Below, piece by piece: positions 3,308 to 6,405 of a stretch of DNA of 13,038 nt (its first letter is position 1; each line of letters starts with the position of its first letter). The stretch comes from Candidatus Latescibacterota bacterium (lineage in GTDB: Bacteria; JAAXHH01; JABIQT01): NCBI GenBank assembly GCA_018667995.1, contig JABIQT010000362.1, positions 1 to 13,038 of the forward strand. Reading direction: 5' to 3'. Below the pieces are notes generated by a model. That model ran no database searches. It saw only the letters and a program-made list of their open reading frames with translations, and had not been told where the DNA came from. The translations under genes were made by a program, and so were the position numbers.

Positions 3308-4555
3308 ATGCAGGAATTTGCGACGATTCAAGCGCAAGATCCGGACGTATATGAAATCATGGCTGGAGAGCGCACGCGCCAGCGTGATGGCATCGAGTTG
3401 ATACCGTCGGAAAACTATACCTCACCCGCAGTCCTCGAAGCCATGGGCTCGATCCTCACAAATAAGTACTCTGAAGGATACCCGGGAAAACGTTACTACG
3501 GCGGCCAGGAGTACATAGACAAAATCGAGAATCTTGCAAAGCGGCGGGCCAAGCAGCTATTCGGAGCGGAACATGTAAATGTGCAGCCCTACTCAGGCAG
3601 TCCTGCCAATATCGCCGTATTCATGGCCTTGCTGGAGCCGGGTGATACATTAATGGGCATGAAACTGGATCAAGGTGGGCATCTCACGCATGGCCTGGGC
3701 GTCAATTTCTCGGGAAAGTACTTCAATGTAGCTTCCTACGGAGTCCGTCAGGACTCAGGTCGAATTGACATGGATGAAGTGCGCGATATCGCACTGGCGC
3801 AGCGCCCGAAATTGATCATTTCCGGTGCCACTGCTTACCCGAGGCAATTCGATTTTGAAGCCTTTCAATCCATAGCGGATGAGGTCGGCGCCATGACCAT
3901 GGCTGACATATCCCACATTTCCGGGCTTGTGGTCGGGGGCGTGCACCCTACGCCATTTCCATTTACTGATATAGTCACTACAACTACCCACAAGACGCTA
4001 CGTGGTCCTCGCAGCGCTATAATCATGTGCAAAAAGCAGTACGGCAAAGCGATTGACAAGGCGGTGTTTCCGGGCTTGCAGGGCGGACCCCATGATCACA
4101 TCACTGCGGCAAAGGCGGTCGCATTCGGTGAAGCAATGCAGCCGTCCTTTGCGTCCTATGCCGCACAGATAGTATCTAATGCAAGGGCACTGGCAGCAGA
4201 ACTCATAAAGCATGGGTTCGATCTTGTCTCTGGAGGCACGGACAATCATCTTGTGCTGGTAGATTTGACCAATAAAGGTATCATTGGGAAGGATGCCGAG
4301 GCATGCCTCGACAAAGCAGGCTTGACCGTTAACAAAAACTCAGTCCCCTTTGACACACGATCTCCCTTCAGCCCAAGTGGCGTTCGTCTCGGAACACCCG
4401 CGGCAACCACCCGAGGCATGAAAGAAACTGAGATGGCCCACATAGCCAGGTGGATCAGCGAAGCGATCGACAATCAAACGGACGATACGAAGCTTGGCGC
4501 CATACACGATGAAGTCCGGGAGCTATGCGCGGGATTTCCCGTGCCTGCGATATAA
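3308..4555 (+). CDS. glyA: Serine hydroxymethyltransferase
   Basis: A full-length 415-residue SHMT (the usual bacterial length is about 415-420). It is a PLP enzyme that interconverts serine plus tetrahydrofolate with glycine plus 5,10-methylene-THF, and is the main entry to one-carbon metabolism in the cytoplasm. Diagnostic segments in order are [19 protein letters not shown] (30-48), [15 protein letters not shown] (52-66), [15 protein letters not shown] (91-105), the DQGGHLTHG folate/PLP loop (121-129), [10 protein letters not shown] (199-208), [12 protein letters not shown] with the PLP-binding lysine K229, and [11 protein letters not shown] near 254-264. The 3' end has the conserved [13 protein letters not shown]. 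The start is certain because of the AAGGAGGT site. The next reading frame, if it starts at 4525, overlaps the 3' end by 31 nt. No defect is seen in the conserved motifs. Confidence 0.97.
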
Positions 4556-5724
4556 AACGCTGCTTGCCTGTCCGACTTTACCGCCTGTCTACGTCTCCAA
4601 CATGTCCAGTAGAAAGTGAACACTTGCTGCGATCCAATAGCGCCATATGCATCCTCTCACTGATCTTGACTGTCGCGCTACCCGGTGAGATCCTGGCGAT
4701 GCCTCCTGGAGGCGCAGGTGACCATGAGAAACGCCTCGCTCTTGGCAGATTACTGTACGAACAGCAGTGCGCAGAATGCCATGGAGATGACGGGGAAGAC
4801 ACGGGCCGCACCGACGGCATCAAGACGCTTCCGGGAATCTATATCCGGGCCACAGATTTCGAGATAGGCCACAGGTTTCGTGGTTTCTCGGCATCGATGA
4901 TATCGGAAGAGGAACGCGACGCCGTCGTCGCATACGTGAAGTCGCTAAAAGGTAAGAAGGCATATGCCCGGCCGGAGTTCGTCATTAGCTCAATCGGCCT
5001 CGAACCCTTCATTACCGATCCGTCTGTACGCATAGTTGATTTACGGTCGATTGAAGAGTATAGACTTCTCCACCTGCCGAATGCAGTACATCTCTCTTGG
5101 GAAAAGTTACGGCAGACTACAGGAGACGTGCCGTTCAGTCGATTGATGGAGGATATCGGCATAGGTGACGATACCTATGTAGTGGTTTACGATGACCAAA
5201 GTGGAAGACGTGCTGCTACGCTTTGGGCCGCTCTAAGGACACATGGCCATCCACGTATCAGCATCCTCGACGGTGGATGGGCAAACTGGGTTCGTGAGAA
5301 ACGGCGTGTCACCGTATGGGGACCACCGCAGCGATCGGTTCGATTTTCGTCGGAATCTATGGCCACGGCACAGTCAGAGGATGTTCACGTCGCGGCCGCC
5401 CGCCTCGTGAACATTGACGAGAGCGTATCGGCCCGAGGCCAGCAATCACAGGCACTATGGCGGAGTATTCTGCAGCCGGATGGCACGTTCCAGCCGGCTA
5501 AAGCATTGATGGACCTTTATCAAAGATCGGGGCTCCGCATGGGCGAACGTGTACAGACCATATCACGCGATCCTGCCGCCGCAGCCTTGGCGATGTTTTC
5601 ACTCGAGTTGATCGGATTCCATGGGGCCAGCGTGTCTCCTGACATCTCGGGACTAGTGAACGCGGATCGACATATGGTTCCAGCGATGCATATCCCGGAA
5701 CCTGAGGACGGACATCCTCATTGA
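4525..5724 (+). CDS. Exported cytochrome c-tandem rhodanese fusion, sulfurtransferase cysteine lost
   Basis: A 399-codon frame from ATG 4525. The true start is uncertain, because the first 33 residues look non-coding and the GGGAG before the ATG is only 2 nt away. TTG at 4624 would begin directly before the signal peptide ([25 protein letters not shown], about 34-58). Numbered from 4525, a small cytochrome c domain follows: CAECH heme site (C82, C85, H86) and a C-terminal helix [14 protein letters not shown]. Two rhodanese repeats then occupy about 155-380. The first has [20 protein letters not shown] and ILDGGWANW, with D224 at the usual cysteine position, as in inactive N-terminal rhodanese domains. 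The second has [21 protein letters not shown], then [12 protein letters not shown], where S347 replaces the catalytic Cys. After the signal peptide the only cysteines are the two heme ligands. It is probably a periplasmic redox or binding protein rather than a sulfurtransferase. Confidence 0.85.
5703..5720 (+). terminator. Weak hairpin at the 3' end of the cytochrome c-rhodanese gene
   Basis: TGAGGA (5703-5708) and TCCTCA (5715-5720) form a 6-bp perfect stem with a 6-nt loop just before the stop codon, followed by TTGATTCCTT. The downstream T-tract is poor, so it is at best a weak terminator or a chance inverted repeat. The 87-nt gap to msrB holds no other signal apart from the msrB ribosome binding site. 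Confidence 0.2.
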
Positions 5725-5811: not shown

Positions 5812-6405
5812 ATGAAATCAGCATTAATGGCATCAATATTTGGTCTCGTTCTAACAGTCGGGTGTGGTGTAGCGAGGGAACAGAGCACCGCCCGCAACGA
5901 CTCAACGGAGTCTCAAACTGTTTCCATAGTGGAACTCACCGAAACGGGCGAGCTGAAAGGAGTTGTTATGGCCGAGAAAGTGATCAAAACAGAGGACGAG
6001 TGGAAATCTCAGTTGACGGATGAGCAGTACTATGTGACCCGCGAAAAGGGAACGGAACGCGCGTTCACAGGCGAGTACGACAAACACTATGAAGATGGCA
6101 TCTACAAATGCATCGGATGTGGAACGCCGCTTTTTGAATCCACCACTAAATTCGATTCCGGGACCGGATGGCCAAGCTTCTATGAACCCCTGGCGGAGGA
6201 AAATGTTGAACTCGATTCGGACGCGACCTTTGGCATGGTACGAACCGAGGTGCTCTGCAAAAGGTGTGACGCCCACCTTGGGCACGTCTTCAACGATGGG
6301 CCACGCCCTACGGGAATGAGATATTGCATGAATTCCGCATCCCTGGACTTCGTGCCGGAATCAGAACTCAGTTCCGGTGAAGGCGACAAAGCAGAGAAAG
6401 AGTAA
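5812..6405 (+). CDS. msrB: Lipoprotein peptide-methionine (R)-S-oxide reductase MsrB
   Basis: MsrB reduces the R-epimer of methionine sulfoxide in proteins. The ATG at 5812 is chosen (197 residues) because GGAGAGG at 5796-5802 precedes it by 9 nt and it opens a lipoprotein signal, [22 protein letters not shown] at 5776 would add 12 residues without a better site. After lipid Cys18 and a Ser/Thr/Glu-rich linker to about 55, the MsrB domain starts at [24 protein letters not shown]. Zinc ligands are C100/C103 (CIGC) and C149/C152 (CKRC). The catalytic motif is RYCMNSASL with C172, and HLGHVF lies at 155-160. The usual resolving cysteine in SGCGWPSF is Thr118 here (SGTGWPSF). With the lipid, zinc and catalytic cysteines accounted for, no resolving Cys remains, so an external reductant is needed. 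The C-terminal tail is acidic. An internal start could give a cytosolic form. Confidence 0.94.
5957..5970 (+). promoter_or_regulatory. Internal ribosome binding site and in-frame ATG inside msrB
   Basis: AAGGAG at 5957-5962 is followed after 5 nt by ATG 5968, in frame with msrB. Initiation here would make a leaderless protein of about 145 residues beginning [17 protein letters not shown], the usual length and N-terminus of cytosolic MsrB enzymes. The site is a better match to the consensus than the upstream one. Whether it is used is inference. Confidence 0.5.

Follow-up and report, generated by a model that had tools for sequence, protein, structure and literature searches.

The window analysed in this work, a 13,038-nucleotide stretch of DNA from a Candidatus Latescibacterota bacterium, encodes a protein in which a cytochrome c domain is followed by a tandem rhodanese without a catalytic cysteine (Table 1). 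Judged from sequence comparison, the catalytic site of the second rhodanese domain has been lost and the CxxCH heme-attachment motif has been conserved; the structural model indicates that the fold of the tandem rhodanese has been kept. The protein is predicted to be an exported c-type heme protein, and the reading that we prefer, with somewhat better than even confidence, is that its tandem rhodanese is permanently without sulfurtransferase chemistry and acts as a non-catalytic module. The protein is a clear-cut example: its enzyme fold was deprived of the catalytic residue, kept through deep divergence and joined to a heme domain. The annotation "sulfurtransferase" would be wrong for it.

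Table 1. Positions of the features discussed in the text, in the numbering of the window.
Feature	Position	Strand	Remark
glyA (serine hydroxymethyltransferase), upstream neighbour	3308..4555	+	synteny anchor
Cytochrome c / tandem rhodanese ORF	4525..5724	+	399 aa as listed
Likely start codon (TTG) with signal-peptide-like segment	4624..4698	+	supported by glyA overlap and start position of orthologue L006
Cytochrome c domain, residues 69-142	4729..4950	+	59-62% identity to two orthologues
CAECH heme-attachment motif, C82-H86	4768..4782	+	conserved in 3/3 orthologues
His116	4870..4872	+	invariant in 3/3; candidate distal heme ligand from the alignment
Rhodanese domain 1, residues 146-262	4960..5310	+	core intact; 55-62% identity to orthologues
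Domain-1 loop D223-D224-Q-S-G-R228	5191..5208	+	Asp in place of the Cys; Arg228 found in 3/3 fusions and in 0/33 other tandem rhodaneses
Degenerate rhodanese domain 2, residues 293-372	5401..5640	+	fold core retained, active-site residues lost
Codon 347 TCA (Ser), catalytic Cys position of rhodanese 2	5563..5565	+	orthologues GGC (Gly), GCC (Ala)
msrB (methionine-R-sulfoxide reductase), downstream neighbour	5812..6405	+	lipobox-like LTVGCG N-terminus

Start codon and domain organization

The listed ATG start codon at position 4525 is located inside the 3′ end of the upstream gene, so that the first 31 nt of the listed open reading frame overlap it. From sequence knowledge we take this neighbour to be glyA. 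The orthologue L006 starts 41 nt past its glyA stop codon. Because the ATG lies within glyA and a normal signal-like segment follows the TTG at position 4624, the latter is the likelier start, which corrects the start used in the original prediction. The 399-aa frame contains cysteines only at residues 8, 13, 27, 42, 82 and 85. Translation from the TTG leaves C42, which belongs to the signal segment, and C82 and C85 of the CAECH motif, which are thus the sole cysteines after it. The original prediction that the heme ligands are the only cysteines of the mature protein therefore holds. Its domain order, a CxxCH motif after a signal-like segment and then two rhodanese repeats, is borne out by the reading frame, the Pfam matches, the profile search and the model.

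The cytochrome domain is matched by the Pfam families Cytochrome_CBB3/Cytochrom_C at residues 72-138 (28.7 bits against a cut-off of 27 and 29.1 against 21.3). Both the CxxCH motif and the profile match place it in the cytochrome c class (PF00034/PF13442), and all three orthologues score above the PF00034 cut-off. Pfam calls a single Rhodanese domain (PF00581) at residues 164-257 (6e-18, 65.6 bits against 22.2), which corresponds to domain 1. Domain 2 is too degenerate to be called, and the profile search aligns homologues across both domains. An AlphaFold2 model built from 36 sequences has a pLDDT of about 90 over most of both rhodanese domains and superimposes on the structure 1uar with a Z score of 25.4 and 3.2 A over 237 residues that span both of them. 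Membership in the rhodanese fold superfamily (PF00581) is thus indicated by the Pfam match of domain 1 together with the tandem model. A model built from three sequences has a mean pLDDT of 40.6; the 36-sequence model is good for the rhodanese part and poor for the cytochrome part. Short fragments of paralogous cytochromes aligned wrongly and were not included in the alignment.

Loss of the catalytic cysteine

The 16 species genomes of the phylum that were sampled all belong to one order and contain three orthologues in total, including the protein of the window. The two others have the same architecture and come from different families: L005 (G001) is 52% and L006 (G011) 45-46% identical to the window protein. 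The catalytic position of the second repeat, where the original prediction read Ser347 instead of Cys, is indeed occupied by serine in the window, by glycine in L005 and by alanine in L006. The other cysteines of the two orthologues are found at differing, unconserved positions. All 33 comparators without this cytochrome carry Cys at the corresponding column (alignment A3). Among the larger number of other loci that were inspected, each second loop within the covered sequence has Cys or, at six distinct loci, an in-frame TGA codon. The canonical cysteine of the second repeat is therefore to be expected, and the alignment indicates that its absence from the fusions is not due to chance. The comparison of the three orthologues implies that the loss is old and shared and that it predates the split of the three families. 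Since Ser, Gly and Ala occur at one position, serine is merely one of several replacements and is not itself conserved. Conservation of this serine in homologues, which the original prediction had named as a supporting test, is thus not found, and a role of Ser as a conserved replacement nucleophile was discarded for this reason. The intact CxxCH motif, named alongside it, is present in all three orthologues.

The remaining active-site features of domain 2 have eroded as well. The Arg of the DxR motif, present in 33/33 comparators, is replaced by D, S or G in the fusions, and RxGHIPGA, the Tyr that precedes the Cys and SW.EW (W379 position) are lost or eroded. The three fusions thus lack the features of a tandem-rhodanese sulfurtransferase (domain-2 Cys, DxR, GHIPGA and SW.EW). 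The structural positions F322, L328, Y332, G336, L360, L362 and G364 are retained in all of them. The three fusions are 59-70% identical to one another in the cytochrome domain and 55-62% in domain 1; for domain 2, which also varies in length, the figure is 32-43%. The active pair L099/L041 shows the opposite ranking of the two rhodanese domains, with domain 1 at 48% and domain 2 at 61% identity. The reading frame is open to its end in 3/3 fusions despite their deep divergence. With no cysteine in the rhodanese loop, Cys-persulfide chemistry at this site is excluded, as had been concluded before. Two ordinary Cys-bearing tandem rhodaneses (L089 and L090) are encoded in the same genome, so the sulfurtransferase function is probably covered by other proteins.

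An ancestral selenocysteine was also considered, since a single base change separates TCA from TGA and TGA occurs at this place in some homologues; it is unsupported, as the codons of the orthologues are GGC and GCC and Cys is present in the nearest homologues, L099-L101. As a separate observation, the codon of the catalytic Cys is an in-frame TGA (Y-TGA-QGG / QTG) at L044, L045, L047, L049, L055 and L059 in several genomes. The products are candidate selenoproteins, and selenocysteine forms of rhodanese are already on record (PMC13188914).

The Cys-equivalent position of the first repeat is D223, placed by the fixed preceding Tyr in the motif Y222-D223-D224, in agreement with the Asp originally reported there. 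Among the comparators, Asp occurs in 15/33 at D223 and in 18/33 at D224. The putative pocket residues D172, R174, D223, D224 and R228 are retained in 3/3 fusions. P161, F162, R228, A235 and W265, the last just outside domain 1, are invariant in the fusions and found in 0/33 comparators, a fusion-specific pattern drawn from a weak sample of three orthologues.

Heme ligation and possible roles of the rhodanese module

Cytochrome c assembly proteins (PF01578) are encoded in the genome, which makes heme attachment plausible. Aligned with the fusions, nine paralogous cytochrome c domains have the distal Met in 9/9, within a segment of the MPxF/MYSY type. At this place the three fusions are without Met, and they have Met residues nearby at differing positions (M125 of the window protein, residue 122 of the two others), which, like the invariant His116, are candidates for the distal ligand. 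By an ungapped count, Arg119 is near the place of the distal Met in the fusions. The model has a pLDDT below 50 in the distal-ligand region and is unreliable there. The lack of the canonical Met ligand on the distal side makes electron transfer by this domain uncertain.

We propose that the rhodanese module probably now holds or docks something rather than moving sulfur. The ligand of domain 1, with its Asp-Asp-x-x-Gly-Arg loop and the D172/R174 pair, would be a small anion or another protein, domain 2 may survive mainly as the structural half of domain 1, and the attached heme would exchange electrons with, or sense, whatever is bound. The original prediction of a repurposed rhodanese fold stands in that a non-catalytic module is the best reading; its binding or docking part stays at the level of a proposal. 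If the binding role is true, the protein would be a bacterial non-catalytic rhodanese working with heme. More tentatively, and at the level of a possibility only, the fusions may form a lineage-restricted class in which a tandem rhodanese without sulfur chemistry has become a ligand or partner receptor coupled to a non-His/Met heme, which would make it a new kind of envelope-located redox adaptor or sensor.

The divergence of domain 2 could equally be the mark of ongoing decay. Domain 2, if not the entire rhodanese half, would then be a vestige on which selection was relaxed after the loss of Cys, and the protein a cytochrome c with a decaying tail. The low identity and variable length of domain 2 are consistent with this, as are the replacement of Cys by a different residue in each fusion and the absence of the gene from most genomes of the phylum, with glyA and msrB adjacent in several. 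We nevertheless regard a vestige as rather unlikely, given that the conservation of domain 1 is close to that of the cytochrome domain, that the frame has stayed open and the core positions of domain 2 have been retained in all three deeply diverged fusions, and that the fold is modelled with confidence. With an assembly of 1165 contigs, one might suspect a sequencing or assembly artefact, or a mutation that a single genome acquired recently, but this is refuted by two independent genomes from other families that encode the same architecture, likewise without the cysteine and with different residues in its place. This reading can practically be dismissed, and the loss is neither recent nor a sequencing artefact. 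Of the outcomes that the original prediction had named as refuting it, Cys at this loop in close homologues or a CxxCH that is not conserved, neither was found in the orthologues.

Two further explanations assign the protein a role other than the one we prefer. The heme could be a five-coordinate or bis-His sensor or ligand-binding centre, with the rhodanese pair transmitting or gating the signal or binding adjacent sulfur species. The distal Met conserved throughout the paralogues and missing at that place in the fusions, the nearby Arg119 and the invariant His116 argue for it, but Met residues occur close by and the model is poor in this region, and we consider such a centre unlikely. Still less probable is a Cys-independent catalysis, in which the domain-1 pocket (D172, R174, D223, D224, R228) would be an enzyme site where an anionic substrate is oxidised via the heme. 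It is suggested by Arg228, which all three fusions share and none of the 33 comparators has, and by the retention of all pocket residues, but Asp at these loop positions is common in non-catalytic first domains. We know of no rhodanese chemistry of this kind.

Distribution, gene neighbourhood and related systems

The fusion gene is absent from 13 of the 16 genomes of the phylum, in several of which glyA adjoins msrB. In G000 and G011 it lies between these two genes, and in the other examined genomes of the order (genera g3 and g5) msrB directly follows glyA. In G001 a dehydratase gene is found at most 4 kb past the fusion gene, and the same dehydratase follows msrB in the window. In the tree, the fusions group as a single clade (100/100 support) with a long stem. 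Their sister, with weak support (81/62), is the exported, Cys-bearing L099-L101 group of another phylum, whose members have a signal-like N-terminus. This distribution fits a single gain in an ancestor of the order, after which some genera lost the gene; alternatively, the gene may have reached its present hosts by transfer. The glyA-msrB setting may represent an inherited gene order without functional link. The MsrB of the window is lipoprotein-like (LTVGCG) and probably exported, and its gene adjoins glyA across the order. Directly downstream of the G001 orthologue, a thioredoxin-like/NHL-repeat protein (L088:1953-3584) replaces MsrB.

The closest known systems are the exported tandem rhodaneses and the thiosulfate and mercaptopyruvate sulfurtransferases (two PF00581 domains; Thermus 1uar, E. 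coli SseA 1urh, Mtb SseA 3hzu), which have the same two-domain fold and a Cys-less first loop and match the window protein over their full length in the profile and the model. The window protein differs from them in the loss of the domain-2 active-site features listed above, in the added N-terminal cytochrome c and in a domain 1 that is better conserved than domain 2. A scan of the genome contigs returned single-module relatives only: L034 and L035 are stand-alone cytochromes, and L033 is a stand-alone tandem rhodanese. No further fusion with this domain order came from profile searches in the phyla to which G110, G240 and G073 belong (5, 95 and 1 genomes), and a Cys-less form with an N-terminal cytochrome was not met elsewhere in the small sample of about 480 genomes searched. 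No description of the architecture was found in the open-access papers searched. The original view of it as non-standard is upheld for this domain order in the genomes and papers searched, but not for the combination as such: L062:1333-2496 (G073, another phylum) encodes a tandem rhodanese with a C-terminal SorB-like cytochrome c (CTACH). The same two building blocks are joined there in one predicted exported chain, but in reverse order, with an intact catalytic Cys and at a separate position in the tree. L062 is an independent rhodanese-cytochrome fusion, and fusion as such is not unique.

The ExtH-type rhodanese lipoproteins of the Geobacter electron conduits are extracytoplasmic rhodaneses encoded beside c-type cytochromes (PMC6148476). 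They offer a precedent for this vicinity, but as separate genes and not as a fusion. In NCBIfam, ExtH (NF040901) is a distant relative of the comparators L062 and L099, and the window protein does not match NF040901. Use of the rhodanese fold for binding and not for sulfur transfer has been described for TBC1D23 and for the N-terminal domain of SseA, which binds SufE (PMC7274447, PMC12375888). Unlike the window protein, neither has a heme domain; TBC1D23 is eukaryotic, and the second domain of SseA is still catalytic. Elsewhere in the window, positions 37-1638 encode an FG-GAP beta-propeller protein that carries at its C-terminus a sorting domain for type IX secretion (TIGR04183).
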